A stretch of 43,267 nucleotides of DNA from a virus: positions 1-43,267 of IMG/VR virus record IMGVR_UViG_3300044712_001783; one strand, 5' to 3'. Shown here piece after piece: positions 1,906 through 43,267 of the stretch. Within the stretch, counting starts at the first letter, position 1, and each line of letters starts with the position of its first letter. Below the pieces are notes generated by a model. It was not told where the DNA came from. It did not search any database and saw only the letters and a program-made list of their open reading frames with translations. The translations under genes and the position numbers were made by a program.

Positions 1906-2091
1906 ATGAAAAGAGTTCAGAGGCGCAAAAACTCCAGACGGTCAAAGGGGATCACACGGACGGTGATCAAGTCACCGTTTGAGAAGTGGTGGGATGGGGC
2001 GAAGCGGAGATGGGGTCCGCGGATTATGAAGGGGTTTGCGTTCATCGGTGCGGTGGCAGTGATCGTTGTGGCTGTGAAGGAGATCTTATGA
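1906..2091 (+). CDS. Small basic protein with C-terminal membrane helix
   Basis: I chose ATG 1906 because GGAGG at 1897-1901 sits just upstream; a TTG at 1894 in the same frame has no such site. The 61-aa product has a very basic N-terminus (residues 1-18, rich in Arg/Lys), a W-rich amphipathic part (FEKWWDGAKRRW) and one C-terminal helix (FAFIGAVAVIVVAV). Bases 1950-2076 recur exactly at 43141-43267, where another version with a different N-terminus is cut by the window end. Topology suggests a membrane-anchored protein with a nucleic-acid- or phospholipid-binding tail. Function unknown. Confidence 0.6.
   Translation: MKRVQRRKNSRRSKGITRTVIKSPFEKWWDGAKRRWGPRIMKGFAFIGAVAVIVVAVKEIL
1950..2076 (+). 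repeat. Exact 127-bp repeat, copy 1
   Basis: Identical to 43141-43267, which is the window's last 127 bases. The bases immediately before differ (G at 1949, A at 43140), and everything further upstream is unrelated at DNA level. The length equals a k-mer size widely used in de Bruijn assembly, so this is probably a graph junction rather than a biological duplication. Confidence 0.9.
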
Positions 2092-2225
2092 ACAAAAAAT
2101 TCGACCAGGAGAAGTGGAATGGTTACAACGTGATCGTTGCTGTGTTGCTATCTATCCTGTCGCTGATCGCGGCATTGATCCTTCTGATCAGTAAGGCGGC
2201 ACCGGTCTTCTTGGGAGGTGGGTGA
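2088..2225 (+). CDS. 45-aa single-pass membrane protein
   Basis: The ATG at 2088 overlaps the previous stop (ATGA), so translation is coupled. The product has a polar N-terminus (MNKKFDQEKWNGYN) and one long hydrophobic helix (about 15-40). The frame is open upstream, but earlier starts lie inside the preceding gene. No family recognised. Its stop overlaps the next start (TGATG), so it belongs to one tightly packed operon of small membrane proteins. Confidence 0.55.
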   Translation: MNKKFDQEKWNGYNVIVAVLLSILSLIAALILLISKAAPVFLGGG

Positions 2226-2620
2226 TGGATGTGAAGTGTTTGATCGTGCCTGGATTTCTGATTGCCATGGTGTTGATCACGGTCGTGTCTTCGGCGGCGG
2301 GAAGATTGGCACAGCAGCGTGAGACAGCTCGCCAGGTGTGGCTGAATGACTCGATGAAGGGCAGCAAGATGGTGGTGCCTGCGGCGGTGTGGGAGCCGGG
2401 GCAGCCGGTGATCGAAGAGCACGTGCCGGTGCCTGATGAGAACTCCACGGAAAACTACCTGCATGAGATGGCAGAGCGCAGGGAACGGCAGAATGCTCGT
2501 GCAAAAATGATGGCGATCAAGCGGGCGCATGAACGATCTGCGCAGGAGGCAGCCCACCGGTCGGATGTGGATGCGATTATCAAGCGGGCGTATGCCAGTT
2601 TGGGAAAGGAGTTGGAGTAA
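2225..2620 (+). CDS. Membrane-anchored protein of unknown function, 131 aa
   Basis: The start ATG 2225 overlaps the preceding TGA and has GGGAGG upstream (2213-2218); a GTG three bases earlier is possible. Residues 6-24 form a hydrophobic N-terminal anchor or uncleaved signal. The rest is soluble, with an Ala/Glu/Arg-rich probable helix or coiled coil from about 80 to the end. No catalytic motif is visible. It overlaps the next gene by one base (TAATG). It may be a tethered accessory factor of the early operon, but nothing in the sequence shows its role. Confidence 0.6.
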   Translation: MDVKCLIVPGFLIAMVLITVVSSAAGRLAQQRETARQVWLNDSMKGSKMVVPAAVWEPGQPVIEEHVPVPDENSTENYLHEMAERRERQNARAKMMAIKRAHERSAQEAAHRSDVDAIIKRAYASLGKELE

Positions 2621-3015
2621 TGGACATTAGGAAATGGGGTGCTGATGCTGGCGATATCTGGGACCTAAGCCTTAATGATGAACCTGGTCAGAGAGGGCTG
2701 GTCCTGCCAGGCTCCGAGATACAGGTCCTGGATGTTGGTCTGTATTTGAACGAGATAGAAGGGCATGAATATTGGAAGGAACATGAATGCACACAGTTCC
2801 ATTTGTTCGTGCGCGGCATGGAAGTGTGGGTGCTGGAGTTTCGTGGTCGAACAAGTGTGTATAGCGATCCTAGCTACAAAGTGGCATTCGGCGCTCAGCC
2901 TGAATTCTCAGTGATGCTCTCGATTGACGAAGCGCACGAGCTATTGCTGAAAACTTTGCCGCCAATTGAGTATGTGCGCGTAACGCCCGAAGAGTGGGCT
3001 GCAAGGAGGTCGTGA
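2620..3015 (+). CDS. Hypothetical soluble protein, 131 aa
   Basis: The ATG 2620 overlaps the previous stop. The product is acidic and mixed alpha/beta with no membrane segment or signal and many aromatic residues. It starts MDIRKWGADAGD and ends in TPEEWAARRS. I do not recognise a family. Its last codons contain AAGGAGG (3003-3009), the ribosome site of the next gene, so the two genes are coupled. Confidence 0.55.
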   Translation: MDIRKWGADAGDIWDLSLNDEPGQRGLVLPGSEIQVLDVGLYLNEIEGHEYWKEHECTQFHLFVRGMEVWVLEFRGRTSVYSDPSYKVAFGAQPEFSVMLSIDEAHELLLKTLPPIEYVRVTPEEWAARRS

Positions 3016-3881
3016 TGTTTGACTCTTGGAGTGAAGGTCCGCGGGATTGGAAGTGGATTGTTCCTGGCGTGCTGGGGATCATGCTGTGCCTGGTGGTCTA
3101 TCAATGTTGGATGATCGGCACGGATGGCTTTCTGTTGGTTGCATTGGCTCTGGCGTGTGTGGCTTGCATCTTCTTTCTTTCGGCGTTGACGAACTATATC
3201 TGGCTGGTGAAGAGACGCAGCGAAGAGCTTTATCGCGAGCATATGGAAGCGTTGAACGCCACCCCATTGACGAAGTTGGCAGATGCCATGAAGCAGATGC
3301 ACCCCGAGGCTGTGCGTGTGTTGGATAAGTTCGGCATTCGCACTATGTGGGGCGTGGATGTTGGGAAAACGTTGGGCGAGCGGGATTGGGTGCTGCTGGG
3401 AACAGACGTGCCTGTGCGCTTTGGGTTCATCGAGTATGTGCTGAACAAGAGTGGCAAAGCTCTGTATCCTGCCTACCGATTCGCGGAGGGCAGCAAGAAG
3501 TGGGACCCGGATGGCGTCACGTTGGACCGAGATCAGCATAAGGCATTTGAGAAGTGGATGTTTGCCCGCACTATGGTCACTCGTTCGCATGGCGATTACA
3601 AGCCTGCTGAGTTCATCCCGCCTTTCACTCCCAAGACGATCATGGAATTGATGGGCTTTACTGGGGAGCAGGAGCTTTATCGACCGGATGATGAGCGGGA
3701 GGTGAAGCAGCTTCCGACTGAAAGCGTGAAGCGGGAATCCGTGGGGCATCCCGCAGGGGGATCAAATGTGGCGAAGGCGGAGCGTCCTGAACCGGATTTG
3801 ACGGAGGAGGAGCTGGCGGCTAGTCGGGCTGAGATGGAGTTTTATGCAAGTAAGTTTGTGGATGGCAAGGTGCCTTCGTGA
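3015..3881 (+). CDS. Two-helix membrane protein with large cytoplasmic domain, 288 aa
   Basis: ATG 3015 is preceded by a strong AAGGAGG; the same frame opens earlier, but only inside the previous gene. Two hydrophobic helices (about 14-31 and 38-60) are followed by a roughly 225-residue soluble domain that would face the cytoplasm by the positive-inside rule (KRR after helix 2). The C-terminal 60 residues are polar and Pro/Glu-rich, probably disordered. No known domain recognised. It is the last gene before the partition pair. Confidence 0.6.
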   Translation: MFDSWSEGPRDWKWIVPGVLGIMLCLVVYQCWMIGTDGFLLVALALACVACIFFLSALTNYIWLVKRRSEELYREHMEALNATPLTKLADAMKQMHPEAVRVLDKFGIRTMWGVDVGKTLGERDWVLLGTDVPVRFGFIEYVLNKSGKALYPAYRFAEGSKKWDPDGVTLDRDQHKAFEKWMFARTMVTRSHGDYKPAEFIPPFTPKTIMELMGFTGEQELYRPDDEREVKQLPTESVKRESVGHPAGGSNVAKAERPEPDLTEEELAASRAEMEFYASKFVDGKVPS

Positions 3882-3891
3882 AGGTGAGAAG

Positions 3892-3926
3892 GTTCAGAAG
3901 TTCATAAGTTCAAAGGTTTCATAAAA
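3892..3926. promoter_or_regulatory. Tandem GTTCANNN repeats upstream of parM-like gene (candidate parC)
   Basis: Three contiguous 8-bp units, GTTCAGAA (3892), GTTCATAA (3900) and GTTCAAAG (3908), are followed by a variant beginning GTTTCATAA (3916). In type II plasmid partition the centromere parC consists of short direct repeats just upstream of parM, bound by ParR, which also represses the operon. Position and periodicity fit, but similar filler repeats occur elsewhere in this window, so the centromere role is an inference. Confidence 0.4.
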
Positions 3927-3938
3927 GGAGTATCTATC

Positions 3939-4916
3939 ATGGCTATCAATTTTGGTTTCGATATGGGAATGGGTGCGCTGAAGTTGTGGAGCGCAGCAGG
4001 CGGCTGGCAGTTAGTGAGCCAGGTGGCGAGCAACGGTCATGGTCATCTTTCGGATGGCATCCTGGGATTGAAGAATCGCAAGCGCCCGATGTTGATCAGC
4101 GGTGATTTCGGTTCGTTCTACGTGGGAGATGGGGCGCATGAGCATGGGCGACCGGTGGAGAACCTGGATTTCGACCGCTTGACAGGCGCACCAGAGATGC
4201 GCGTGCTGCTGTATGCAGCGCTGGCGCAATATCAAAGTGAATATGGTCCGTTCGATGAGGCGCTTTCGTTGATGGTCGGTCTTCCGCTCCAGATGATGAC
4301 TGGTGAGATGGCAAAGGACTATCAGAAGGGTGTGAAAAGCTGGTTGAAGGGTACACATACATTTGAAGTGGATGGCATCACGCACACGGTGGAAGTGGAA
4401 GATGTGAAGCAGACATCCCAGCCGGTGGGAGCGTTGTTTGACTATGTTCTCGATCATCGCGGTCATATGATCGGCGAGCGCGGATCTGCGCTGCTGGATG
4501 AAGTGGGCGTGATCAGCGTTGGATTCAACACAGTGGAGTTGCTGGTGGTGAAGGAACGCGGTGCGCTGGAACGCTTCACCCGTGGCAATACGCTGGGTGT
4601 GCGGCGCTTGTTGGAACTGATGAACCGTGAAGGTCTCTTCAGCCTGGGCGAGTTGGATTCGAAAGTGAGATCTGGTGGGATGCGTGCAGAGATGCGCCAG
4701 GCAATGCCGGTGTGGAGCCGCGAGGTGAACGGTGAGATCGAGAAGGTGTGGGGCGGCAGCCATCGTCGTTTTGCGAAGGTGTTGATCGTGGGCGGTGGTG
4801 CTCTTCTGCTCCAGGATGCGTTAACGCAACAGTTCGGTCATAAGGCTTGGGTTCCTGAAGATGCGGTGCTCTCGATCGCTCGTGGGCTGTGGAAGCTGAG
4901 CGTGATGAAGAGGTGA
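3939..4916 (+). CDS. ParM/Alp-type actin-like segregation ATPase
   Basis: The 325-aa product has the actin-fold signature order: phosphate-1 loop FGFDMGMGALKLW (5-17), a VGLPLQM segment (113-119) typical of ParM/StbA-like proteins, a phosphate-2 region VGVISVGFNTVEL (189-201), and the adenosine motif VLIVGGGALLL (281-291). The usual Asp of the phosphate-2 DxG is replaced (SVG), which is odd. ParM-family filaments push plasmid copies apart when captured by ParR bound to parC. AAGGAG at 3926-3931 supports ATG 3939. A small putative ParR follows at once. It implies segregation of a low-copy extrachromosomal form of the phage. Confidence 0.75.
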   Translation: MAINFGFDMGMGALKLWSAAGGWQLVSQVASNGHGHLSDGILGLKNRKRPMLISGDFGSFYVGDGAHEHGRPVENLDFDRLTGAPEMRVLLYAALAQYQSEYGPFDEALSLMVGLPLQMMTGEMAKDYQKGVKSWLKGTHTFEVDGITHTVEVEDVKQTSQPVGALFDYVLDHRGHMIGERGSALLDEVGVISVGFNTVELLVVKERGALERFTRGNTLGVRRLLELMNREGLFSLGELDSKVRSGGMRAEMRQAMPVWSREVNGEIEKVWGGSHRRFAKVLIVGGGALLLQDALTQQFGHKAWVPEDAVLSIARGLWKLSVMKR

Positions 4917-4917
4917 T

Positions 4918-5169
4918 ATGAGCAGACAAAAAGACCTGATCCGTTCACGGCGCATCCGGTTGGAAGGGTGTCTGAAGCCTGGCATCGATCCTGAGATCGA
5001 TAGGGTGCTGGCTTGGCTGGACTCCCTTCCACCGCGGACCAAGTTCCCTTCTGTGATCGCACGTTTGATCGCAGGCGGCTTGATCCAATCAATCAATGTC
5101 CAGGATGATGAGCTGGCGATGCAGGTGCAAGCGGCTCAGGACATCATGGCGAACTTTGTAGTGGAGTAA
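4918..5169 (+). CDS. Putative ParR-like partner of the actin-like protein, 83 aa
   Basis: ATG 4918 lies two bases after the actin gene's stop, with GAGGTGA as ribosome site. The N-terminus is basic (SRQKDLIRSRRIRL), as expected for the beta strand of a ribbon-helix-helix DNA-binding protein, and is followed by two predicted helices (PEIDRVLAWLDSL; FPSVIARLIAGG) and an acidic C-terminal tail that could contact the filament. Small genes directly after parM/alp genes usually encode ParR/AlpR. Size and position carry the call; the fold is inferred. Confidence 0.6.
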   Translation: MSRQKDLIRSRRIRLEGCLKPGIDPEIDRVLAWLDSLPPRTKFPSVIARLIAGGLIQSINVQDDELAMQVQAAQDIMANFVVE

Positions 5170-5214
5170 TTCTTAACCGTCAACAATAGCACTCCCATTC
5201 TTAACCGTAAAGAA
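5170..5214. repeat. Two direct repeats TTCTTAACCGT(C/A)AA
   Basis: TTCTTAACCGTCAACAA at 5170-5186 and TTCTTAACCGTAAAGAA at 5198-5214 are spaced 28 bp apart immediately after the putative parR stop. They could be an alternative ParR-binding or operator site. The rest of the gap to 5335 is purine-rich filler (GCAGAAGGCAGAA type) with no other signal seen. Confidence 0.4.
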
Positions 5215-5335
5215 TTTTTGCCTGCGCTCGGACAGGTGCAGGAAAGCGACACATGCGGGAGGTGGGGAAGGGGAGGAGTGCGAAGAAGAGTGCGGATGGC
5301 AGAAGGCAGAATGAGGAATGAAAGGAGTTTTGAAA

Positions 5336-5581
5336 ATGGCTATTCAGACTTGTAACAGGTGCAAGAAAAACATCGAAGGCGAGTTTCGAATGGAGTTGAT
5401 GAACGGTCCGAAGGGATATCGTCGCTATGCGGTGCATGTGAATTGCGCGGTGAAGCCTGCGGGACGGATGGGCGGGAGACAGATCGCGAAGATGAAATTG
5501 CAGAAGGCAGAAGGCAGCGAGCAGATGGCGGATGAGAATGTTTCCACCACATGTTCGCTTGGTGGAGATATGCGAGGGTGA
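5336..5581 (+). CDS. Small zinc-finger-like protein, 81 aa
   Basis: ATG 5336 was chosen because AAAGGAG (5321-5327) lies eight bases upstream; an ATG at 5318 would include that site in the gene. Cys pairs TCNRCK (about 6-9) and HVNC (about 34-37) make a probable treble-clef or ribbon zinc site. The middle is basic (RYAVHV). The tail contains the filler-derived KLQKAEGSEQ. It probably binds nucleic acid; role unknown. Its stop overlaps the region just before the next start (TGAGATG). Confidence 0.55.
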   Translation: MAIQTCNRCKKNIEGEFRMELMNGPKGYRRYAVHVNCAVKPAGRMGGRQIAKMKLQKAEGSEQMADENVSTTCSLGGDMRG

Positions 5582-5582
5582 G

Positions 5583-6218: not shown

Positions 6219-6219
6219 C

Positions 6220-8115: not shown

Positions 8116-8119
8116 AACC

Positions 8120-9766: not shown

Positions 9767-10465
9767 ATGGCAAACGGACGTTTGGATAAACCTGTTTTTC
9801 AGTTGCCCATGCCTCTCTCTGGCTTTGATGATGTCATCCAGCCTACTGATGAGAAGATGACCAGCGAAGCTGCATTGGCGGCTCTTTCCGCGTGGCGAGT
9901 GAAGGAACCACAATTCATTGATGATGCAGACGGCAAGAAAATGCAACTGGGCGAGCGTGAAGTGGCACCACGCTGGATGGATCTGTTCAAACGTTTGGTG
10001 GAAGTCGGTTGGAAATGGCGCGTGGCTGTTTATATTGCCTGGGCAGCACAACCAAAGAAGTACCGTCAACCTGCCACACAGGAAGAGCTTGCGATTCAAT
10101 GTCTTGGATTGACATCTGATCGAGCTATAGCTACATGGCGCAAGAACAATGAAAGCATTGATGAAACAATATCCGTTTTACAGGGTGCCATTATCTTTGA
10201 TGCGCTGCCTGATGCGATGAATGCGATGGTGGAAGTTGCCAGTGAAGCCGATTACAAGGGACACCAGGACCGCAAGTTGATGTTCGAGATGGCTGGTATT
10301 TATACACCGTCATCGAAGATCACAGCGGAGATGGCAAAGAAACTGGTTAACAGTAATCCAGACGACCTGGAATCGCTGAGTGATGAAGAACTCCGCAAGC
10401 TGGAAGGGAACATCAACACAGCGATCACCAATAAACACAAGAAGGAAGGGGAAGAGGACGCCTGA
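9767..10465 (+). CDS. Terminase small subunit-like protein, 232 aa
   Basis: It lies directly before terL with a one-base stop/start overlap. Residues about 84-125 (WRVAVYIAWAAQP, then PATQEELAIQCLG and RAIATWRKNN) look like an HTH of the phBC6A51-type small terminases, which recognise the packaging site. The C-terminal acidic/basic helical tail (from about 195) would contact the large subunit. The call rests on the HTH pattern and position. Confidence 0.65.
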   Translation: MANGRLDKPVFQLPMPLSGFDDVIQPTDEKMTSEAALAALSAWRVKEPQFIDDADGKKMQLGEREVAPRWMDLFKRLVEVGWKWRVAVYIAWAAQPKKYRQPATQEELAIQCLGLTSDRAIATWRKNNESIDETISVLQGAIIFDALPDAMNAMVEVASEADYKGHQDRKLMFEMAGIYTPSSKITAEMAKKLVNSNPDDLESLSDEELRKLEGNINTAITNKHKKEGEEDA

Positions 10466-12057
10466 TGGTTGCCCCGACTGTGAATCGTAGTGATCTGGCG
10501 AAGGCAGAACGCGCACGGCGTGAGCTGGCTCGTCGCCATTTAATCGATTACAGCCGCTATGTGGCTCCCTGGTATGAGCCTGCAAAGCATCACATCTATC
10601 TGGCTGGAAAACTGGAGAAGGTGAAACTCTTCATCGAGACCAAAGGTGTACAGGGCATCGGGCGTTTGATCGTGTGTGAGCCGCCTCAATATGGCAAGAC
10701 CGAACAGACCAGCCGTTTATTCCCTTCGTGGGTGCTGGGTGATCTACCCGATACGCGCATCATCCTGACATCCTACGGCGCAGATCTGGCAACTGAAAAC
10801 AGCCGCATCACTCGAAACTATGTAGGCAGTGATGCGTATGCCAACATCTTCGGGGCACGCTCCGCAGTGGATGAACCTGTGGAGCTGAGCATGGAAAGCC
10901 GCAGCGTGGTCTCGTGGAATTTGAAGGATCATCGCGGGTCCGTGTTCGCTTCTGGTGTGGGCGGTGGTATCACCGGTCGCCCGGCAAACCTGGTCGTGAT
11001 CGATGACCCGTTCAAGAGCCGTGAAGATGCGGAGAGCGAGGTCTATCGCAAAAAGGTGATGAGCTGGTACCGGTCGGTGGTGTATCCCCGTGTAGCGAAC
11101 ACTCCGGGCGCGGCGATCATCATCATGCACACACGCTGGGATCAAGAAGATCTCGTTGGTCAATTATTGACCCAGATGGTGAGCGATGCGGAAGCCGATC
11201 AATGGGATGTTGTTTTTCTTCCCGCGATTGCTTTGGAAGAAGATCAATACCCAAAAACGGAAGAAGAATTTCGCGAGAATTTGCTGCGCGGAATTTATAT
11301 CCCTAAAGGTGGTGATCCACTCGGACGCAAGCCAGGCGAAGCATTATGGGCGGAGCGTTCGAGCGTGCAGAAGATTCTGCGCACCAAAGCCAACATGCTG
11401 GATTATGACTTCGAAGCGCTCTTCCAGCAGATGCCCCGCATGGCAGAGGGTGAATTCTTTGATGATAAGGATTTTGAGATCATCGAGAAAGCTCCCGAAG
11501 GTTTGCAGTGGTATCGCTATGTGGATTTAGCGCTGGGTGAATCAAAAACCAGCGATAACAATTCTACGATTGCAGGCGCGATTAACGAGAGAACTGGCGA
11601 CCTGATCCTGCGTGATCGCATCAAGGTACGCGAGCTGAAAGAATTCCTGCCACGAGTGCGCACGGCGATGCTTTCTGACGATGAGCGCAATACTGAATGG
11701 GGCTTTGAGGATGTGGCGTTTCAAAAGTTAGTCATCCAACAATTCATGGCGGATAAGACTTTGATGAAAGTGCGGATGCGTGGCGTGAAGCCTTTGGGCG
11801 ATAAGGTGGAGCGTGCGCGTCCGTGGCAGCTTCGAGCGAAACAAGGACACGTCAAGCTGGTGCGTGGTCCGTGGAATTTGGACTTTATCCGCGAGGTGAC
11901 TTCGTTCCCTAAAGGTCGCCATGATGATGATGTGGATACCGTGAGCGGCGATGTGCAGATGATCGCCGAAGACGGTGGCGCAAACAAGACCGCTACGAGC
12001 GAGTCCATCGTTGTGAGTGCTGATGAATTATTTATGGAGCCATCATGGAACCAGTAA
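10465..12057 (+). CDS. terL: Terminase large subunit
   Basis: The 530-aa packaging motor has Walker A-like CEPPQYGKTE (71-80), an adenine/coupling segment ILTSYGADLA (100-109) and Walker B LVVIDDP (176-182). The RNase H-like nuclease domain starts at YVDLALGESK (352-361) and ends near HDDDVDTVSG in the C-terminal 40 residues. Terminase cleaves concatemeric DNA and pumps it into proheads through the portal. The end overlaps the following small gene. PPQYGKT instead of the more common PPRHGKS is a conservative variant. Confidence 0.93.
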   Translation: MVAPTVNRSDLAKAERARRELARRHLIDYSRYVAPWYEPAKHHIYLAGKLEKVKLFIETKGVQGIGRLIVCEPPQYGKTEQTSRLFPSWVLGDLPDTRIILTSYGADLATENSRITRNYVGSDAYANIFGARSAVDEPVELSMESRSVVSWNLKDHRGSVFASGVGGGITGRPANLVVIDDPFKSREDAESEVYRKKVMSWYRSVVYPRVANTPGAAIIIMHTRWDQEDLVGQLLTQMVSDAEADQWDVVFLPAIALEEDQYPKTEEEFRENLLRGIYIPKGGDPLGRKPGEALWAERSSVQKILRTKANMLDYDFEALFQQMPRMAEGEFFDDKDFEIIEKAPEGLQWYRYVDLALGESKTSDNNSTIAGAINERTGDLILRDRIKVRELKEFLPRVRTAMLSDDERNTEWGFEDVAFQKLVIQQFMADKTLMKVRMRGVKPLGDKVERARPWQLRAKQGHVKLVRGPWNLDFIREVTSFPKGRHDDDVDTVSGDVQMIAEDGGANKTATSESIVVSADELFMEPSWNQ

Positions 12058-12302
12058 GGTTCGAGCAAGCGAACAGAGAATTGTTGAAGCCAAAAGGCAT
12101 GACCGATGAAGAATGCGGAAGCCTGCCTGTCTTCAGCGATGGTGAGCAATGTATTTCGCTTTGGAAGATGACGTGGAAGGAACGCTTCTCCGCGTTGTTC
12201 TTCGGGAAGATTTGGTTGAGTGTGTATAGCGGGCATTCGCAGCCGCCCGTTTGGCTCATGGCTGCGAAAGAGATCTTCAAGAAGGAGAGCAGCAATGGCT
12301 AA
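12045..12302 (+). CDS. Hypothetical protein, 85 aa
   Basis: ATG 12045 overlaps the terL end by 13 bases. The product is amphipathic, with a W/F-rich middle (SLWKMTWKERFSALFFGKIW), and looks like many short phage proteins predicted to sit at membranes or in structural complexes. The next gene's ribosome site (AAGGAG, about 12281-12286) lies in its last codons. No family recognised. Confidence 0.5.
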   Translation: MEPVRFEQANRELLKPKGMTDEECGSLPVFSDGEQCISLWKMTWKERFSALFFGKIWLSVYSGHSQPPVWLMAAKEIFKKESSNG

Positions 12303-14928
12303 TAAAATCGCGAAGGGTCAATTACTCACTGAGCTGGTGAAGGGGTCAATGGAATACACCATGAGCCTGATCAAGGCGGCATTTAGTTCTCAGTTTCCCA
12401 ATCGGGATATGAGTCCTTATTTCTGGGTCGAAGAGATCTTCAGTGATTATGTGATCGTCAAAGCCTATAGCGACAGTTCGCTGAAGAGTGATGAATATTA
12501 CAAGGTCCCATACACGAAGAATGGTGATGTTTATACCTTCGTGGAAAAGGATAAGTGGGAGGTTGTTGAACTGGCATATCAGCCGCAGACATCTGCGGAT
12601 GTTGCGGAAGGGAGGGTATCAATACCTGCTGGAAGATCAGGAAAGAAGCGCAATCGCTTCGATGAACGGATCGATGCGCAGGTATCCCTGCTCGAAACGG
12701 TGGAGGGTAAGCGGAGGGTCAAGATCGAAGGTGCAATTACGGCGAATGTTGTTAACGGCAACCGTCGCCGATATCCCAGTGCTGTGGTCGAAGCAGCGAT
12801 CGATGAATTACGCGGTCATCTGAACGAGAGCGCAGGACAGGGACGTGCTATTCAGGTTCTCGGGGAGGCGGAACATCCGTCTGATAAGAGCGGGCGTGCA
12901 AACCTGCTGGAGACAGTCACCAAGTGGGAAGAGGTCACGTTTGATGGTCAACGTGTGGATCTCACTGGGCGCATTCTTGAAACCAGCAAAGGCAAAGACA
13001 TCCTAGCTCTAATGGAAGGCGGCGTGAAGCCTGGCGTGAGCTTGCGTGGGTACGGTGAAGGCAAGTCTATTGGAAAGGGCGATGATAAGGTCTTCGAAGT
13101 TTCGGAACTGCACATCACAGGCTTTGACCTGGTGCTCGAACCATCCTTTGAGAACTCCGCCCAATTGGTTGAATCAATTAACTCACAAGGAGATGACGAA
13201 ATGAACCCCGAGGAAATCCTCAAACTGTTGAAAGATCACCCCGAACTCTTCAAGGGCATCACTGAAGCCCAGGTGAAAGCCATGGGCGAAGAACAACTCA
13301 AAAATCTCGAAACCCGCATCCGCACGGCTTTGGGCATCGATGGCAACGCGGACATCGCCGAATCGTTGAAGGCGACCGCTGAGAAGGCTCGCAAGTTCGA
13401 AGAGAGCCAGGCGAAGACTGCGATGGATTCTGCGATCGCAGAAGCGACCAAGGATCTGCCGTTCGGTGAGAAGCTGAACAAGGTCTTTGTCGAGTCCTTC
13501 AAGAACATGGAATTCACCACGGTAGACCAGGTGAAGAAGTTCGCAGAGAGCCAGCGCAAGCAGTTCGCTCAGCTCGCTGCCTCCGGTGTGCTCAAAGGCA
13601 TGGGCTTCGATGAGAAGACCCAGCGTGTGCAAATGCTCGGTGATGTGCTGGAGAATGAGACCGGCACGCCTGAATTCGGTCGTGCTGCCTTCGAGATCAC
13701 GGAATCGGTGCGCAAGCATGAGATGCGCCCGGTGAAGGATCTGCGCAAGAACGAAAGCCGCGCTGCGCAGTTTACCATCCAGTTGCTGGAGCGCTTCGAT
13801 AAGCTGTATCAGCGCCAGTTGATGGCGGAGGCGCAAGCCTTCACAGAGGCAGAAGCTGCCAGCGACCTGAACCTGCCCTACAGTGTGAGCCGTGCCGTTA
13901 TCGCAGAAGCATTCCCCACCCTGGTGGCTGCGAATGTGTTCGATATCGGCATTATGAATGGCAGCCCGGAGAACATCTGGTATGAAGCCTTCACGGGTGA
14001 AACCGGCTACACCGTCTCGATCACCGATGAAGTGGAGACGGCTGGCGCAGAGGGCACCTGGTATGACCTGTCTCATGCCAACCTGGTCCCTGGCACCGTT
14101 GTTGTGACCAGCAATCCCGCTGGAACCACCTACGTGGAAGGCACTGATTATGTCATCGATTACGAGCTGGGCAAGATCAAAGCCCTGGCTGCGGGCGCCA
14201 TCGATGCCAATGATGTGCTGGTCGATTACGACTACAACGCTGTAACCGAGGGCGAGGGCGCTGAGATCCAGCAAGCCAAGACCACGCTCAGCTACCAGAC
14301 CATCACCGCCCGCGCATTCCGCGTGGCAGACCAGATCAATCACGAGGCGATCGTGTTCTCCCGCTCGCAGTTGGGCTGGGATGCAGTTGCCCGCACGATG
14401 GCAAACATCATCCGCGAAACCCGCCGCATTATCGACCGCCATTTGATCGAGAAGGCGCTGGCTGCTTCGTTGAGCGTTGCCAACAACAGCGGCGGCACAT
14501 GGACCAATGCCACCGATCCGTTCAGCGAATTCGCTGAGAAGCTCGGGTATGCCAAGGTCAAAGTGGCGAATCGCTACTATGAACCCACCGGCTACTTGCT
14601 GAGCGAGACCAATTCAGATCTGCTCTCGAACTGGGACGGCTTCACCCGCACCGGCTTCCCGAATGCCCTGCTCGATGCGGCTGGCTTCGTGGGTGGGATC
14701 AAAGGTTTGCCCGTCTTCAAGAGCACCCAGATGCGCGATGGTTGGGGCTTGTGCGTGAACCGTGAGATCGTCATGCACCGCGTCTTCCAGCCCATGACCG
14801 TCAAGGGTCCGTTCCCCACCTACGGCGCGAACCGCAAGGTGATCGCGGCGGAGCAGTATTACTCAGAAGAGTACAACGCTTCGCTCGCCCCGATCGCGAA
14901 CAAAGCTGCGCATATCGTTATTGCATAA
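12295..14928 (+). CDS. Prohead protease - scaffold - major capsid protein fusion, 877 aa
   Basis: ATG 12295 follows AAGGAGAGCAGCA; the frame is open earlier, but only inside the preceding gene. Residues 145-290 form an assembly-protease domain with the His-Ser pair in GEAEHPS (H194) and GVSLRGYG (S249). Residues about 303-540 are helical and charged (scaffold or delta-domain-like). From about 545 on (ASDLNLPYSVSRAVIAEAFP, then many beta strands) lies the capsid protein. The protease would free mature capsid protein by cleaving the scaffold after assembly. An internal ribosome site AAGGAG (13187-13192), eight bases before Met303 (13201), would also give a 575-aa scaffold-capsid protein without protease. 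Confidence 0.8.
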   Translation: MANKIAKGQLLTELVKGSMEYTMSLIKAAFSSQFPNRDMSPYFWVEEIFSDYVIVKAYSDSSLKSDEYYKVPYTKNGDVYTFVEKDKWEVVELAYQPQTSADVAEGRVSIPAGRSGKKRNRFDERIDAQVSLLETVEGKRRVKIEGAITANVVNGNRRRYPSAVVEAAIDELRGHLNESAGQGRAIQVLGEAEHPSDKSGRANLLETVTKWEEVTFDGQRVDLTGRILETSKGKDILALMEGGVKPGVSLRGYGEGKSIGKGDDKVFEVSELHITGFDLVLEPSFENSAQLVESINSQGDDEMNPEEILKLLKDHPELFKGITEAQVKAMGEEQLKNLETRIRTALGIDGNADIAESLKATAEKARKFEESQAKTAMDSAIAEATKDLPFGEKLNKVFVESFKNMEFTTVDQVKKFAESQRKQFAQLAASGVLKGMGFDEKTQRVQMLGDVLENETGTPEFGRAAFEITESVRKHEMRPVKDLRKNESRAAQFTIQLLERFDKLYQRQLMAEAQAFTEAEAASDLNLPYSVSRAVIAEAFPTLVAANVFDIGIMNGSPENIWYEAFTGETGYTVSITDEVETAGAEGTWYDLSHANLVPGTVVVTSNPAGTTYVEGTDYVIDYELGKIKALAAGAIDANDVLVDYDYNAVTEGEGAEIQQAKTTLSYQTITARAFRVADQINHEAIVFSRSQLGWDAVARTMANIIRETRRIIDRHLIEKALAASLSVANNSGGTWTNATDPFSEFAEKLGYAKVKVANRYYEPTGYLLSETNSDLLSNWDGFTRTGFPNALLDAAGFVGGIKGLPVFKSTQMRDGWGLCVNREIVMHRVFQPMTVKGPFPTYGANRKVIAAEQYYSEEYNASLAPIANKAAHIVIA
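13187..13203 (+). promoter_or_regulatory. Internal ribosome binding site and start within the capsid fusion
   Basis: AAGGAG (13187-13192), eight bases, then ATG 13201 in frame with the large fusion. The new N-terminus MNPEEILKLL begins exactly at the junction between the protease and scaffold parts. This is the best ribosome site in the area and predicts two products from one frame in different amounts. Confidence 0.7.
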
Positions 14929-29559: not shown

Positions 29560-29589
29560 CAAAAACCCGCTCTCATGAGCGGGTTTTTG
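29560..29589. terminator. Bidirectional intrinsic terminator between late operon and serine recombinase
   Basis: Stem CAAAAACCCGCTC (29560-29572) / GAGCGGGTTTTTG (29577-29589) with a TCAT loop. The A run and T run let it end both the rightward late transcript and the leftward recombinase transcript. The recombinase stop lies inside it. Confidence 0.9.
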
Positions 29590-31213
29590 TCACTGTGACA
29601 ACTGCCGGATAACTGAACAGTTGCCTATAGAGAGGTGCCCCCATGGGGGTGCGATTCATAGGCAACAGCTCCACGGGGGCTGATTCAAAAGGGGGCGAGC
29701 CTGTGAAGGGATAATAATATTCGACCAGGCAAAAGATCTTATCTCCAACACGCTCCGCTCGCACTTTGTGGATCAGTTCCTTCAGGTACTGGCGTTTGTC
29801 TTCGTAGGGGGCTTCTTTGATGCGTTGGATCAAGGTTTTGGAAACGGTGACAATTTGATCGTAGGTGAGACGCGGAACCGCCTGGACAGGAATATCCAGT
29901 TCTTCGAGTTCCTTCTTGATCTCAGCTTGGCGTGCTTCCGCATCCCGCAGGCTTTTGGCGATGGCGGTGCTCAGCCCCATCTCACCGATCGCTGCGGTGT
30001 AATTTGCGATCGCTCTGGCAACGGAGGCGCGTTCGTCGTGCAATTCCTTGCGGCGTTCGGTTCGTCTTGCTTCGCCATGCGTTTGATTTTCGATCGCGAT
30101 CTCCTGAATGGCGGCGATGTTGTCAGGTGCAAGGATATGGTTTTCAATGGTATCGATCACTAGCTCTTCGAGCCTACGGCGGTTGACTCTGCCAGCATCG
30201 CAGCCAGCGTGGCGCTTGGATCGTGAGCAGCGATAACCTTCATCGCGATTTTCGACTTTGTTGCGGATGGTGGTGTTGCCATTCATGGGCGCTTCACAAC
30301 GGGCGCAGATGCAATACCCGCTCAGCAGATAGGCAGAGTTGGTGCGCTTAGGATGGCTTTCTTTGAAAATGGTTTTGGCGTGATCTTCGGAGCGCTTTTG
30401 CACGGCGTTCCAGGTTTCCATATCGATCAACGCTTCGCAGTAATTCTCAACAACAAGATCCCCGAATTCGAGAATACCGATGAACAGTTTATTGCGGAAG
30501 AAGGTGGTGTATGAATTCGTGGAACCGAAGATGCGTGTGGCTTTGTGTATCTCTGCCACCGGTGCTCCACTAGCTTTCATGCTCCATGCTTTGAGCACAC
30601 GCTTGCGCAGCTTCGGATCGGGCACCCAGCGGTGATTGGTGCGGGTTTCGCCTTTGCGCGGATTGATGGTCTTGATCGGTTCCCGCTTAAATCCCCGCGG
30701 CGGTGTGCCTGGCATAGCTCCCTGCATCACCAGCGCCCGCAGACCATCACGCGCATCGATGGCAGTTTGCTCACTGCGCTCTTCATTCGCCATATCGATG
30801 AACATCTCCGCGAAGATGGCAAACTTGCCTTCGGGGATTTGATCGGTGAGCGAATGGATGGTGATGCCATTGCGCCTGAGACGTTGTTTGTAGTACGTGG
30901 AATCTTCGAGATTGCGACCGAAGCGGGAGAAGCTCCACAACAGCAAGCCATGCGGATTGTGTTCCCCGTTATCTGATTCTTTGATCATGCGTAGGAAGTC
31001 TTCACGCCCCGCAGTGGATGTGCCACTCTTGGCTTCATCTTTATAGACGTGGATCAGCTCCAGCTCGTGTAGTTTGCAATAGCTCTCGATCACTTCAAGC
31101 TGCCGGCTGATCGAGCGGTCCTGATTGTCTCCGCCGCTGTCGCGCAGATATGCCCAGACCGTGGAACCGGGCGGAAGTGTGGAAGGAGGAGGAACGTGGT
31201 TTGAAGAAGACAA
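29573..31213 (-). CDS. Large serine recombinase (phage integrase), 546 aa
   Basis: The N-terminal resolvase domain has YLRDSGGDNQ (catalytic S26, R24), then an EIFDM-like AEMFIDMANEERS helix and WSFSRFGRN. The recombinase domain follows (about 165-290), then a zinc ribbon (CICARC at about 317-322 and YRCSRSKRHAGC) and a coiled coil (about 395-460), in the standard order of large serine integrases. They join attP and attB without high-energy cofactors. The start is an unusual TTG (31213-31211) without a clear ribosome site, so the true start is uncertain. The 3' end contains a nested palindrome (29620-29666). Confidence 0.92.
   Translation of the reverse strand: MSSSNHVPPPSTLPPGSTVWAYLRDSGGDNQDRSISRQLEVIESYCKLHELELIHVYKDEAKSGTSTAGREDFLRMIKESDNGEHNPHGLLLWSFSRFGRNLEDSTYYKQRLRRNGITIHSLTDQIPEGKFAIFAEMFIDMANEERSEQTAIDARDGLRALVMQGAMPGTPPRGFKREPIKTINPRKGETRTNHRWVPDPKLRKRVLKAWSMKASGAPVAEIHKATRIFGSTNSYTTFFRNKLFIGILEFGDLVVENYCEALIDMETWNAVQKRSEDHAKTIFKESHPKRTNSAYLLSGYCICARCEAPMNGNTTIRNKVENRDEGYRCSRSKRHAGCDAGRVNRRRLEELVIDTIENHILAPDNIAAIQEIAIENQTHGEARRTERRKELHDERASVARAIANYTAAIGEMGLSTAIAKSLRDAEARQAEIKKELEELDIPVQAVPRLTYDQIVTVSKTLIQRIKEAPYEDKRQYLKELIHKVRAERVGDKIFCLVEYYYPFTGSPPFESAPVELLPMNRTPMGAPLYRQLFSYPAVVTVTKTRS
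29620..29666. repeat. Nested inverted repeat in recombinase 3' end
   Basis: Outer arms GTTGCCTAT (29620-29628) and ATAGGCAAC (29658-29666) enclose an inner perfect palindrome CCCCCATGGGGG (29638-29649). The whole is 47 bp, the size of an att site for serine integrases, but its centre (AT) is symmetric, which argues against a directional crossover site. Other possibilities are an RNA hairpin or a recombinase-binding accessory site. Confidence 0.5.
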
Positions 31214-36469: not shown

Positions 36470-37393
36470 ATGAAAACTCAAACAGCACCGCTTTCTCTTA
36501 CCGTCCCTGCAACTTGCGAACCTGCAACCTGGAACCTGGAACTTTCCAACCATCTTGCAAAGATTTATCGCAACACCCACACTCGCGAGACCGCAGCACA
36601 ACACATCCGCGTCTTCGTGCTCTGGTACCAGGCAACCTTCCACCAGGAATTCGCCCCTCAGCTCCTCACCAACTATGACCTGCACCTATACCGTGCCTGG
36701 TCTCTCGATCGCGAGAAGGTCAAAGCCTCCACATGGAACTCTCGCCTGTGGGCGCTCACCATCCTATGCAACTGGATCGGAGATCCGTCCTTGCTCAAAG
36801 ACATCGAGCAAAAAGCGCAGGTCCGCGGCTCCACTAAACACCGCTCCCTAACCAGCGACGAATATCACCGCCTGGTCCATGCGCTCGAGCAGAACACAAA
36901 GCGCACCGTCACCCAGTTCGAACACATCAACGCCGTCCGCGATTGGGCATCCGTCATGCTCATGCTGCATGGTCTGCGTGTGGAAGAAGTCACCCTGGTA
37001 GATCTGGATGATGTCACCCTCAACGAACGCAGTGGGGAGGTGCTTGTACGAAACGGAAAGGGCAGCAAGGAGCGGACCGTCCCATTGAACCTGATCGCCC
37101 GCAACGCCCTCCGCCTCTGGCTGGATGTGCGAGCAGGTACCGATATTAAAAGCTTGATCGGCGTCTCCGATCGCACCCTCCAACGCAATGTCGCAGCCCT
37201 GGGCGCTCAGATCGGCGTCCCTGATCTCACCCCCCACTGGGCACGCTACACCTTCGCCAAACGCCTGGAGCGCAAAGAGATCCCGCTGGAGACCATCCGC
37301 GATCTGCTAGGGCACTCCAGCATCGAACAAACCAAACGCTACCTGAGATCTTCACTCGAAGAACTCCAGTCCGCTGTGGAAGAGGTGATGTAG
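36470..37393 (+). CDS. Tyrosine recombinase, Xer-like size, 307 aa
   Basis: Catalytic residues are complete: R170 (HGLRVEEV), K197 (NGKGSK), H256 and R259 (TPHWARYTF), H282 (LGHSSI) and Y291 (TKRYLR). An N-terminal SAM-like core-binding domain covers about 25-110. The N-terminal 25 residues are encoded by filler repeats (ACCTGCAACCTGGAACCTGG), so the native start may be later. The size and lack of arm-binding domain resemble XerC/D rather than lambda integrase. It could resolve multimers or integrate at a dif-like site; such a site lies two genes downstream (39158-39185). Confidence 0.85.
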   Translation: MKTQTAPLSLTVPATCEPATWNLELSNHLAKIYRNTHTRETAAQHIRVFVLWYQATFHQEFAPQLLTNYDLHLYRAWSLDREKVKASTWNSRLWALTILCNWIGDPSLLKDIEQKAQVRGSTKHRSLTSDEYHRLVHALEQNTKRTVTQFEHINAVRDWASVMLMLHGLRVEEVTLVDLDDVTLNERSGEVLVRNGKGSKERTVPLNLIARNALRLWLDVRAGTDIKSLIGVSDRTLQRNVAALGAQIGVPDLTPHWARYTFAKRLERKEIPLETIRDLLGHSSIEQTKRYLRSSLEELQSAVEEVM

Positions 37394-39258: not shown

Positions 39259-39287
39259 GGGTGGTAGGGGGGCGGGGGTGCTCGGGG
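39259..39287 (+). other. G-quadruplex-type motif upstream of primase-helicase
   Basis: Runs GGG (39259), GGGGGG (39267), GGGGG (39274) and GGGG (39284) with loops of 1-5 bases satisfy the usual G-quadruplex pattern on the plus strand. More G runs follow to about 39305. Confidence 0.45.
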
Positions 39288-39369
39288 ATCTCGGGCAGGG
39301 TTGGCTGGGCTACAGGTGGCGATGTGGCTCAGATAGTTAGCAAAATTCTGGAAAAACGGGTAAAGGCTC

Positions 39370-42300
39370 ATGGATAACTTCGTAGCTGAATTGAAGAAGC
39401 GAGTACGGATCGAAGATGTGATCAGCGAGACCGTGGAACTGGAACGAAACCGCGGTCGAGGCTTCACGCGGGGGGCAAAGAAGGGCGTTGGTGAGCATGG
39501 TCTGGTTGTGGACCTTGATGGGCAACGCTTTGCGTGGAATGGGAACGCTGACTATGGCAATGGTCAGTACAACGATGTCATTACGTGGGTGATGATCCGT
39601 GACAGAGTTGATTTTCGGCGGGCGGTGGAGGTGTTGGCTCGCAAAGTAGGGATGGAGCTTCCGAAGTGGAGTGAAGAGCAGCAAGTTCAATTCGCGGCGG
39701 TGCGTGCGAAGGAAGAATTGCTTGATATCGCTCAGCGCATCTTCGCAGAGTGGCTTTGGAAAGATGAGAAAGCCCTGGCGTATGTGCGCGGGCGTGGCTG
39801 GAGTGATGAGACGATCAAGAAAGCGGGTCTTGGCTTCACCGGTTGGGGCACCCCAGCCGAGTATGAACAGATGAAGAACGCTTTTGCTACTGCTGGGGAT
39901 CTTCATTCAGCGGCGGCGGTTGCGGTGCTGGGGCTGCGGGGTGGTGTGGGAGCCTGGTGTGAGAAGCGAAACATCGAAGCGAAGGCACGCTGGCTCGAAC
40001 GCGATGCCATCCCTTCGATGATGGGATGGGGCGAGACCGTTGGGTTGATCTATCCGTGCATTTACTTTGGGCGCACTACTTATTTGTATCGCAGGCATCT
40101 GAAACTCAACGAAGACAAAAGCGCTCTCATTGGTTCAGATGAACCGAAGAGCTACAACCTGCCTGTGGAACTGGTGGGCAATCGCCAGTTGTATTTCAAC
40201 CATGTTTATTCGCCGCGAGCTGAGCGTGTGGTGTTCGTCGAAGGTCCTGCGGATGCTGTGACGCTGGGGCAGTGGGGCGTGGATGCGGTCTCGATAGCGG
40301 GAACAGCCTGGGGTGATCATGAAGCGGAGCTGCGTCGCTTGAAGGATGCGAAGGCTGGTGACAAGCCTGCTCACGAGGCGCTTTATGTGGCGCTCGATTC
40401 CGATCAAGCCGGTCGTTCTGCGATGTTTGGCAAGGATGGCGAGTTCCCGCTGGTGAATATCTTCGGGGCGATGTGCCGCGTGATCTATTGGAAAGAGAAG
40501 GACGCGAACGACTGGTTGCAGGCAATGATCCGTGAGGGGAAGAGCGCGGAAGAGCAAACACAGGCGGCACTGGATGCGATCGGTGGAGCAAAGCCGATGG
40601 CAATCGAGGTGGCGAAGTGGGCAGGCTCGCGGACGGATGATCATGCCAAGACCAAGGCGTTGAAACGTGCCTTCGAAGTGATCGCGCAGATGGGTGATGA
40701 GAACACGATCATGCGCTATGCGTCGGACTTCCTGAGCGCATTCAAGCCTTTGGGCGAGACCGTGAAGGGCATCCGCGAATTTTCGCGGCTGTTGAAGGCG
40801 GCACAGGGCAAGGGTGAAGGGGATGAAAAGAAAGAGGAAGTGATCTACACGTTCGGCGGTCGGATCGGGGATTGGCTGGTGGAATATTGCTATGACCCAG
40901 AGACGCGCAAGGCTCGCTTTGCCTATCGAGATCCGAATGGAAAGGTGGATGAAGCGGACGATCTGGTGATCGATGGCATTCGCTACAAACCGATGCCACC
41001 TGATGACAAGATGATCCGCATTGGCGCCATTCTTTTCCCGAGTGCGCTGGCTCGTAAGAGTGATGGGACTGTTGACCGCAAGAGCACGGCGGAATTGACC
41101 GAGGTGATCGCGTTCAAGTATCGCCAAAACTATTTGTTCCCCCATGCAAAGTGGTCTTACATGGCTGCGTATTGGACGCTGGGCACGTGGCTTTATGACA
41201 ATTTCAATCAGCTCGTTTATTTGCGCATGGTGGGCGATGCGGGAGCCGGGAAGAGTGCGTTGCTGAACCTGCTTGGACAGGTGTGTTATCGCTCGATCAA
41301 GATGAGCGGTGCTGATTCGGAGAGCACGTTCTTCCGCGTAGTGGATGAATATCGTGGGACGGTGATGTTCGAAGAGGCAGATCTGCCCGAAGGATCTGGA
41401 GCGGATAACCCGATCGTGAAGTTCGTGAACCTGGGTGCGATGCGCGGAAACTACATCTACCGCATGGAGGAATATATCAAACCAGATGGAACGAAGGGGT
41501 GGAGACCAAGCCCGTTCGAGACCTACTGCCCGAAGATGTTCGCAATGCGTGGTGACTTCATGGATAACGCTGTGGCTTCGAGATCCATCTCGATCAAGTT
41601 GACCGCGGCGGAGCCTTCTGCGCTGATGGATAAGGGCATCGAGTTGCAGATGAGCGAGAAGACGATGAAGGAACTGCGCTACCTGCGGAATTTGTGCCTG
41701 GTGTGGCGCATGTATGAATTCAGCTTTCAGGAACGGAAGCTGAGCTGGGATCTGGTCGATTTTGAGATCCCGGCACGCTTCAACCAGGTGACGATCCCGA
41801 TGAAGAGCCTGGCTATGAACCTGGATGGTTCGCGGGATGAGAAGTTTCTGGCACAGGTGACGAACCTGCTGCGGGAACATTATCAGGAGATCGTGGGAGA
41901 CAACTCCACCACCTGGGAAGCCCGTGTGGCTGAGGCAGCGTGGAAGATGTACATCTACCCGGATCTGCGGGCGCGTTGTGACATCCATTCGAACGGTTCC
42001 ATCTTCATGAAAATTGGCGACGTGACCGCGATCGCCAACAATATCGCCGATGAAATGAACGAACAGGGCGCAGATCTGCGTGTGAAAACTGAAGTGACCA
42101 GTGAAGAGGGGCAGGGCAAGAACAAGAAAAAGAGCTATGAACTGGGCGCTCAGAAGGTGGGGAAGATCATCCGTGACACGTTCCAGCTGCACACTCCACC
42201 GCGGCGGGGGAACGGTGTGTATTTCGAGTGGGATGACGAGAAGATGATGAGCATTGGGAAGAAGTACGGGGCGCTGCCTCCGATGGAAAAGATCGAGAAG

Positions 42301-42378
42301 GCACGCCAGGAGCTGGCTGCACTGCGGGCAAAGGTGGCGAAACCCTTGCAGATCGGTCTGGAGGGTGCGGATGACTAG
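39370..42378 (+). CDS. Primase-helicase, 1002 aa
   Basis: N-terminal residues 10-100 match the DnaG-type N-terminal domain in outline (YNDVITWVMIRDRV, then FRRAVEVLARKVGMELP) but without zinc-binding Cys. The Toprim domain has VEGPADA (290-296) and DSDQAGR (343-349), the catalytic Glu and DxD of primases. The helicase part has Walker A GDAGAGKS (622-629) and Walker B VMFEEAD (665-671), then a winged-helix-like end. It would prime and unwind DNA at the phage origin. The start ATG 39370 has only GGTAAAGGCTC upstream. A diverged truncated homologue opens the window. Confidence 0.9.
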   Translation: MDNFVAELKKRVRIEDVISETVELERNRGRGFTRGAKKGVGEHGLVVDLDGQRFAWNGNADYGNGQYNDVITWVMIRDRVDFRRAVEVLARKVGMELPKWSEEQQVQFAAVRAKEELLDIAQRIFAEWLWKDEKALAYVRGRGWSDETIKKAGLGFTGWGTPAEYEQMKNAFATAGDLHSAAAVAVLGLRGGVGAWCEKRNIEAKARWLERDAIPSMMGWGETVGLIYPCIYFGRTTYLYRRHLKLNEDKSALIGSDEPKSYNLPVELVGNRQLYFNHVYSPRAERVVFVEGPADAVTLGQWGVDAVSIAGTAWGDHEAELRRLKDAKAGDKPAHEALYVALDSDQAGRSAMFGKDGEFPLVNIFGAMCRVIYWKEKDANDWLQAMIREGKSAEEQTQAALDAIGGAKPMAIEVAKWAGSRTDDHAKTKALKRAFEVIAQMGDENTIMRYASDFLSAFKPLGETVKGIREFSRLLKAAQGKGEGDEKKEEVIYTFGGRIGDWLVEYCYDPETRKARFAYRDPNGKVDEADDLVIDGIRYKPMPPDDKMIRIGAILFPSALARKSDGTVDRKSTAELTEVIAFKYRQNYLFPHAKWSYMAAYWTLGTWLYDNFNQLVYLRMVGDAGAGKSALLNLLGQVCYRSIKMSGADSESTFFRVVDEYRGTVMFEEADLPEGSGADNPIVKFVNLGAMRGNYIYRMEEYIKPDGTKGWRPSPFETYCPKMFAMRGDFMDNAVASRSISIKLTAAEPSALMDKGIELQMSEKTMKELRYLRNLCLVWRMYEFSFQERKLSWDLVDFEIPARFNQVTIPMKSLAMNLDGSRDEKFLAQVTNLLREHYQEIVGDNSTTWEARVAEAAWKMYIYPDLRARCDIHSNGSIFMKIGDVTAIANNIADEMNEQGADLRVKTEVTSEEGQGKNKKKSYELGAQKVGKIIRDTFQLHTPPRRGNGVYFEWDDEKMMSIGKKYGALPPMEKIEKARQELAALRAKVAKPLQIGLEGADD

Positions 42379-42691
42379 TGAACTAGTGAAGAGGAATGGG
42401 TCTCTGCTGCTGCAAGACATTATGTTTTGTGGGGCGGGCGTGTTTTGGTGTTCACCTGTTCACTACGGGCTGTTTTTTGCGATTTTTTCGGTTTTTTGCG
42501 CGTTTTTGGTCATTTACTTCACTACTTACTACATGAATATATATGAAGTAGTGAGTAAGTATGAACAACATGGTTGGAGTATGTGTCAATTTGCCATGTA
42601 TTTAGTGAACAAGTGAACACGCGATTTTGGGTATGTTCATTCATGTTCACTAAAGGTACTTTCGTGCGCGTAAGCAATTATGGAGGAAGGT
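42379..42691. other. Repeat-rich region after primase-helicase, candidate origin
   Basis: No convincing gene. GTTCAC at 42450 and 42458 (8 bp apart), inverted GTGAAC at 42605 and 42613 (8 bp apart), GTTCAT at 42635 and GTTCAC at 42645. An imperfect inverted repeat built on TCACTACTT / AAGTAGTGA lies around 42519-42556, flanking the AT-rich ATGAATATATATGAA. The T-run segment 42471-42505 precedes it. Iterons plus an AT-rich part beside a replication gene suggest an origin. Confidence 0.5.
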
Positions 42692-42979
42692 ATGGATAGT
42701 CACATTGTAGGAAACCCCACCCCTAGCCCCTCCCCAAATGCGGGGGGAGCGCCCGAATTTGGGGGGGGGAACTCGATTGCGGTGGTGCAGTTTGTGGAGT
42801 TGATCCGCGGGGAGCGGACCAGGCAGGAACCGGTGAGCAGGGGTGTGGTGGAGATGTTTTGTCTGGATGGATATTGCCTGGGCTGCTGCGGTGTGCATCC
42901 GATCGATTTTGCAAAGAATGGAAGCGGACGAGTGTTGTGGATGCGGTGTCGGTTTTGTGGGAAGGAGAGTGCTGGATGA
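42692..42979 (+). CDS. Small zinc-ribbon protein carrying the C-run/G-run repeat, 95 aa
   Basis: GGAGGAAGGT just upstream supports ATG 42692 over 42680. Residues 6-27 (NPTPSPSPNAGGAPEFGGG) are encoded by the type 1 hairpin repeat, inserted in frame. The body has CLGCC and a late CRFC, so a zinc ribbon is likely. A run of nine G (42761-42769) lies within the coding part and could slip. Stop overlaps next ATG (ATGA). Confidence 0.5.
   Translation: MDSHIVGNPTPSPSPNAGGAPEFGGGNSIAVVQFVELIRGERTRQEPVSRGVVEMFCLDGYCLGCCGVHPIDFAKNGSGRVLWMRCRFCGKESAG
42713..42769. repeat. C-run/G-run hairpin repeat, type 1
   Basis: Stem TCCCCAAAT (42731-42739) / ATTTGGGGG (42757-42765), with the same C-rich lead and loop theme as 8120-8170. 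Here it lies inside the coding frame of the 95-aa protein. Confidence 0.75.
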
Positions 42980-43086
42980 AGAGAAGAGCAAATGGGCAGC
43001 GTGTGCCGCGTGGGTATAACCTGGTTTCGTTTTTGCTGGCATTGCTGGCGTTGATATTGCTACTTTGGAAAAGTGGAATTATTTGA
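42976..43086 (+). CDS. 36-aa single-pass membrane protein
   Basis: ATG 42976 overlaps the previous stop and has GGAGAG (42964-42969) upstream. Basic start (MKRRANGQRVPRG) and one hydrophobic helix (about 17-31). It occupies the same place as the 34-aa membrane protein at 1800-1904 in the other copy of this locus, but the two are not similar in sequence. Function unknown. Confidence 0.55.
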   Translation: MKRRANGQRVPRGYNLVSFLLALLALILLLWKSGII

Positions 43087-43099
43087 AAGGAAGGTTGAG

Positions 43100-43267
43100 A
43101 TGAAAGGTCGAAGGTCGAAGGTAAAAAGTCGAAGGTTGAAGATCACACGGACGGTGATCAAGTCACCGTTTGAGAAGTGGTGGGATGGGGCGAAGCGGAG
43201 ATGGGGTCCGCGGATTATGAAGGGGTTTGCGTTCATCGGTGCGGTGGCAGTGATCGTTGTGGCTGTG
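43100..43267 (+). CDS. Second version of the basic membrane protein, 3' truncated by window end
   Basis: AAAGGAAGG precedes ATG 43100. The first 14 codons (MKGRRSKVKSRRLK) are encoded by a GTCGAAG-type filler repeat and differ from the other copy; from codon 15 the sequence is identical to 1950-2076, ending in the membrane helix. If the molecule is circular, the reading frame continues at 2077 and ends at 2091, giving 60 residues. Confidence 0.6.
   Translation, partial: MKGRRSKVKSRRLKITRTVIKSPFEKWWDGAKRRWGPRIMKGFAFIGAVAVIVVAV
43141..43267 (+). repeat. Exact 127-bp repeat, copy 2 (window end)
   Basis: Identical to 1950-2076. It is the last 127 bases of the window, so it is the closing overlap if 1950-43140 is a circle. 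Confidence 0.9.

Follow-up and report, generated by a model that had tools for sequence, protein, structure and literature searches.

A probable circular phage genome likely joined by assembly to the replication region of a sibling phage in one viral record

Two primase-helicase genes and a 127-base repeat

IMG/VR virus record IMGVR_UViG_3300044712_001783 was analyzed in its entirety, and its 43,267 nucleotides are referred to here as the window. It carries a primase-helicase gene near each end and an exact direct repeat that reaches its right end. The 127-base stretch at 43141 to 43267 is an exact copy of positions 1950 to 2076, both on the plus strand, and these are the only two occurrences in the window. 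No opposite-strand copy of the repeat and no further direct exact repeat of 25 nucleotides or more was found in the window. At the left edge of the repeat the match ends at once, with zero further matching bases (G at 1949, A at 43140); at the right edge the first copy continues with an A and the second ends flush with the contig end. A sequence-only reading of this DNA had claimed this exact terminal match, and it was confirmed over all 127 bases, with a mismatch at the first base to the left. The repeat implies a loop on the plus strand from 1950 to 43140, of 41,191 bases, and sets apart a tail (positions 1 to 1949) that is present once in the record.

Both primase-helicase genes lie on the plus strand. 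The main gene (39370 to 42378) is full length and encodes 1,002 residues with the Walker A motif GDAGAGKSA; its product matched a PHROG DNA primase (7.4e-21), and a sequence search of the PDB gave a best hit at only E 0.051. The tail gene (2 to 1498) encodes the C-terminal half of a primase-helicase with the Walker A motif GGSGSGKSD. Its frame is open to base 2, and the contig thus begins within the gene, at about residue 560 as estimated against open frames of 1,035 to 1,067 codons. Pfam and PHROGs searches at E 0.001 assigned no family to the tail protein.

These genes were compared with a set of 24 related records, comprising 23 viral contigs (G001 to G023) and Virus Rctr41k; other, mostly shorter contigs lay outside the set. 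The tail protein is 73, 71, 59 and 54% identical to the C-terminal halves of the primase-helicases of G001, G002, G003 and G009, respectively. The genes of G001, G002 and G009 are open frames of 1,035 to 1,067 codons, and in G003 the primase and helicase parts lie in separate frames. The near relatives of the main protein are those of G004, G005 and G006 (71 to 75%). This helicase slot is filled in 16 of the 24 relatives, with one gene each: four of the tail type, three of the main type and nine of a third type. The sequence-only reading had taken 1 to 1949 for a diverged repeat of the replication module. The locus is indeed the same, but identity between the tail protein and the C-terminal half of the main protein is only 26%, and the tail gene is of a different type.

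Behind each helicase gene lies a region rich in A and T (AT rich) that contains TGAAC/GTTCA repeats, at 1499 to 1801 in the tail (37% guanine plus cytosine [GC]) and at 42379 to 42679 in the loop (40% GC). Each region is followed by the start of a small basic/membrane gene on the plus strand. The tail version (1906 to 2091) spans the junction at 1949/1950 and starts with MKRVQRRKNSRRSKG, followed by ITRT, and the loop version (43100 to 43267) starts with MKGRRSKVKSRRLK, also followed by ITRT. The frame is open across both junctions; the part preceding the repeat is 15 codons long in the tail version and 14 in the loop version. At the right end the gene is cut after 56 codons, and the addition of positions 2077 to 2091 gives it a proper end (VVAVKEIL and a stop codon). 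Among the matches listed for the first 12 relatives, no homologue of the small gene stood above chance level.

These observations bear on the nature of the tail. The flanks of the two repeat copies had been described as unrelated, and they do lack blastn similarity, but the same small gene starts in both. Since both routes into the 127-mer carry this gene, the flanks are homologous in position. The tail combines the 3' half of a helicase gene of another type, a TGAAC-repeat region and the same small-gene start, which argues that it derives from the corresponding locus in a sibling phage. Its earlier description as foreign is too strong: the tail represents another allele at the helicase slot and not random foreign DNA. 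The join at 1949/1950 is probably real DNA of the sibling phage.

Probable closure of the loop and a presumed assembly at k = 127

A gene for an actin-like protein (3939 to 4916, plus strand; ALP_N, Pfam PF17989), 86 to 89% identical in five relatives, serves as a landmark downstream of the replication cassette. All 14 relatives in which both genes were detected carry the primase-helicase gene followed by the actin-like gene on the same strand, at a distance of 1.7 to 3.7 kb. The primase-helicase occurs without the actin-like gene in G001 and G016, the actin-like gene without the primase-helicase slot in G023 and Rctr41k, and neither was detected in 6 of the 24. In the window, the full-length primase-helicase fits this order only if the ends are joined, which supports closure; the spacing in the closed loop is 2.75 kb. 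The proposal that the early operon runs on across the junction is in line with this order and with the completion of the small gene from 2077 to 2091. GC skew, calculated per 1-kb window, was 0.17 to 0.30 at 39 to 43 kb and 0.23 to 0.34 at 2 to 8 kb, compared with -0.08 to -0.14 at 36 to 39 kb; the high values on both sides of the closure were counted in favor of a closed loop.

The tail helicase lies 2.4 kb from the actin-like gene, a spacing that looks natural. Together with the open frame across 1949/1950, this would fit a single real molecule with both cassettes, arising by partial duplication or as a cassette-exchange intermediate, on a contig that breaks off because the 127-base repeat could not be resolved. 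This idea also gains something from G005, which has an additional short helicase-like frame in another part of its genome, and from Rctr41k, which has a similar one. However, none of the 16 relatives with the slot has two primase-helicases there, the contig begins within the tail gene, and the repeat is as long as a commonly used k, with repeats of that length also found at different sites in relatives. We consider such a molecule quite unlikely.

Exact repeats that reach the contig end were found in 7 of the 24 relatives. They measure 127 bases in G007 and G009, where they run end to end, and in G011, where the first copy lies behind an 876-base tail. They measure 126 bases in G005 (first copy at 8 to 133) and G018 (28 to 153), behind tails of 7 and 27 bases, and 123 bases, end to end, in G015. 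The remaining one, an 86-base repeat in G001, spans a short distance and forms no loop. The 126-base lengths in G005 and G018 are perhaps k-1 overlaps. The end repeat of G009 falls in the capsid-protease gene, that of G011 between the serine recombinase and the homologue of 24130 to 27117, and those of G007 and G005 between the portal and the tape measure; none of these four sites is at the locus of the window's repeat.

Exact direct terminal repeats of about this size are known in real phages, and the 127 bases could be the natural terminal repeat of a linear, T7-like genome to which a left piece was misjoined. The end repeats of the relatives, however, have a common length and not a common place, 14 relatives are continuous through the window's locus, and the 127 bases fall within the coding sequence of an early-operon gene. 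This explanation therefore seems very improbable.

G011 (IMGVR_UViG_3300050508_000118) provides a second independent case of the structure seen in the window, since it too consists of a tail and a loop, closed by a repeat of exactly 127 bases that reaches the contig end. Unlike the tail of the window, its tail is not a different gene type but in part a variant of the right end of G011 itself: the two align at 89% over 1 to 235 and at 84% over 718 to 1003, which includes the exact 127 bases, and the middle is unaligned.

Repeats of this kind are expected from de Bruijn graph assembly. In simulations reported with COBRA (PMC10914622), metaSPAdes and MEGAHIT left end sequences of maxK length on contigs and IDBA_UD left sequences of maxK-1; the simulations covered repeats, regions shared between genomes and within-population variation. 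The overlap in the window resembles these in being exactly maxK long at a shared or repeated breakpoint or at the closure of a circle. It differs in lying 1,949 bases inside the contig, behind the sibling tail, where an end-to-end comparison misses it. Record topology is a subject treated in PMC12807716.

A toy graph with nodes of 127 bases was built from the circle 1950 to 43140 and the tail, the latter extended by 0, 300 or 2,000 further shared bases. Each time the graph resolved into two unitigs (41,318 and 2,076 bases), which reproduced the window letter for letter once merged over an overlap of 127 bases. At k values of 99, 119, 125, 129 or 141 the length differed from that of the window. 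The earlier suggestion that a path of tail plus loop through one shared 127-mer produces this structure is thus upheld as sufficient, with the circle assumed.

The mechanism would be as follows. The loop (1950 to 43140) would be the closed 41,191-bp genome of one phage, and the tail the same locus in a co-occurring sibling with the other primase-helicase type and its own origin candidate. The two would have at least 127 identical bases in common inside the small gene after the helicase, so that at the shared 127-mer two paths lead in and one leads out; indeed, two different bases (G and A) enter it. The assembler would have taken the tail, then the entire loop, and stopped on meeting the 127-mer a second time. 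A k of 127 in this assembly, the assembler itself and a single path leaving the shared node are presumed here, and two phages would have been present in the sample.

Several points weigh against this account. The toy graph is a consistency check with the circle assumed, and it speaks for sufficiency, not uniqueness. The k of 127 is presumed for this assembly; assemblies of the Joint Genome Institute use k up to 127. The sibling phage was not found in the viral contigs, where the nearest tail-type protein is 73% identical, and an exact search of the viral contigs with the first 40 bases of the 127-mer gave 0 matches, although very near records may be excluded from both searches. Among the relatives, 17 of 24 have no end-reaching repeat of 20 or more bases, and in two others it is 126 and in one 123 bases, not 127. 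The second helicase-like frame of G005, 218 codons long with a start much like that of Rctr41k_12, also counts here, but it lies elsewhere in the genome. An exact 29-base search for the sibling or the 127-mer in genome contigs likewise gave 0 matches. Apart from these points, the excerpt of PMC11237453 names metaSPAdes without a list of k values, and a literature search in general terms turned up no description of the exact tail-plus-loop form, a statement confined to that search.

The phage encodes a tyrosine integrase (36470 to 37393, plus strand; PF00589) and a serine recombinase (29573 to 31213, minus strand; PF00239), as would suit an integrated prophage with the 127 bases as attL/attR and 1 to 1949 as host DNA. 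Yet in four viral contigs the slot of the phage itself is occupied by relatives of the tail primase-helicase (only viral contigs were searched), and other genes separate the integrase from the repeat, which is 5.7 kb away. We regard a prophage boundary as scarcely credible.

Taken together, the data indicate (probability about 0.9) that in the window the assembler fused the entire circular genome of one phage, about 41 kb in length, with a fragment of a sibling that has another replication region. The circular 41,191-bp genome proposed from the sequence alone is supported by the repeat, by the gene order of the relatives and by the toy graph with its assumed circle. In nature the loop would be circular, or circularly permuted, DNA.

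Helicase types and the regions behind them

The 350 bases 3' of the helicase stop codon have a GC content of 38% in the tail and 42% in the loop, versus 53%, and a similarly AT-rich stretch follows the helicase in 15 of the 16 relatives with the slot (the exception is G013). Direct and inverted TGAAC/GTTCA repeats, a motif chosen after the sequences had been viewed, number 5 and 8 in the two window regions and 3 to 8 in 14 of the 16 relatives; G008 and G010 have none, and shuffled sequences led us to expect 0.6 to 0.84. GTTCA/TGAAC is the top-scoring 5-mer in these regions, with GTGAA and AAAAA close behind. Compared with 400-base windows of the same records, the motif count stood out (under 5%) in 14 of 18 regions; the four in which it did not are those of G008, G010, G013 and G016.

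Local alignment of the post-helicase regions gave a mean z of 17 within the tail type and 39 within the main type, versus 2.6 between them. The tail region matched those of G001, G002, G003 and G009 (z 10 to 27), and z was at most 3.5 for each of the remaining 13. Unlike pairs also exist within a type, with a minimum z of 1.3 for the tail type and -0.8 for the third type.

In order to relate these regions to the genes around them, Mantel tests were carried out on 17 genomes with 2,000 permutations, the window being represented by its main region with the tail left out. Similarity of the post-helicase region followed that of the helicase (rho 0.42; 0 of 2,000 permutations as high), and not that of the actin-like gene (rho -0.23; 1,952 of 2,000, with that gene present in 105 of 136 pairs) or the terminase (rho 0.08; 515 of 2,000). 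Helicase similarity itself was unrelated to that of the actin-like gene (rho 0.02; 740 of 2,000) and weakly related to that of the terminase (rho 0.23; 113 of 2,000). Mean z behind the helicase was 16.6 within helicase types versus 1.5 between; in control stretches of 350 bases the corresponding values were 6.5 versus 5.7 upstream of the actin-like gene and 19.8 versus 17.6 upstream of the terminase. That the origin candidate follows the helicase type, and not the actin-like gene or the terminase, is what an exchangeable cassette would show. The helicase seems to travel with the sequence downstream of it, as would suit a replication protein paired with its own origin; the AT-rich region may be a replication origin.

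Lambdoid phages carry initiator-origin cassettes in which the replication protein and its origin are exchanged together. A joint exchange of this kind is what would be alike here, and the differences are that other proteins are involved and that the candidate origin lies downstream of a primase-helicase. We put forward tentatively, at rather less than even confidence, that this lineage keeps several divergent cassettes in one slot, each a primase-helicase with a matching TGAAC-repeat origin, and exchanges them whole. Here the crossover would lie within the small gene that follows, and the siblings in one sample would be alike beyond it, for at least 127 bases, with different replication machinery.

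Remaining genes and implications

The actin-like gene is present in 16 of the 24 relatives and has an 83-codon gene behind it; the two might form a segregation or positioning system. Further along the plus strand are the large terminase subunit (10465 to 12057; PF03237) and a single 902-codon gene with a prohead protease domain (12220 to 14928; PF03420, phrog_207). The annotation of its Rctr41k counterpart names both a capsid protein and a protease, and this gene may therefore be a fusion of the two. The large serine recombinase and the tyrosine integrase also occur together in eight relatives (G002, G003, G005, G007, G009, G011, G012 and G013). In G009, one of the genomes with a 127-base end repeat, a tail-type helicase adjoins an actin-like gene that is 86% identical to that of the window.

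Virus Rctr41k (KX853513.1; 41,271 bp) resembles the window in its capsid-protease (61% amino acid identity), terminase (54%), portal (49%) and actin-like gene (54%). It differs in being listed as partial and in lacking both an end repeat and any full primase-helicase of these types; its helicase-like match is 27% identical over 162 residues in a 232-residue protein. Its length had been a candidate argument for a 41-kb circle and was dropped on account of these differences. A literature search on Virus Rctr41k found no paper. The terminase has relatives (L110 and L111; 81 and 78%) in contigs of metagenome-assembled genomes (MAGs) named Anaerolinea thermophila and Anaerolineales bacterium, weak evidence for Anaerolineae as a possible host, as MAG contigs can be misbinned.

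The contig thus likely contains a phage genome in full, although matching one contig end against the other would class the contig as incomplete. A gene count on the unaltered contig would wrongly assign the phage two replication modules. The structure is mostly a known assembly effect, yet it exposes what look like interchangeable replication cassettes. The tail preserves evidence of two replication-cassette alleles meeting the same downstream gene and provides an uncomplicated example in which to ask whether phage helicases move together with their origins. If the proposed exchange is true, cassette diversity would perhaps allow these phages to avoid replication incompatibility or anti-helicase defences.

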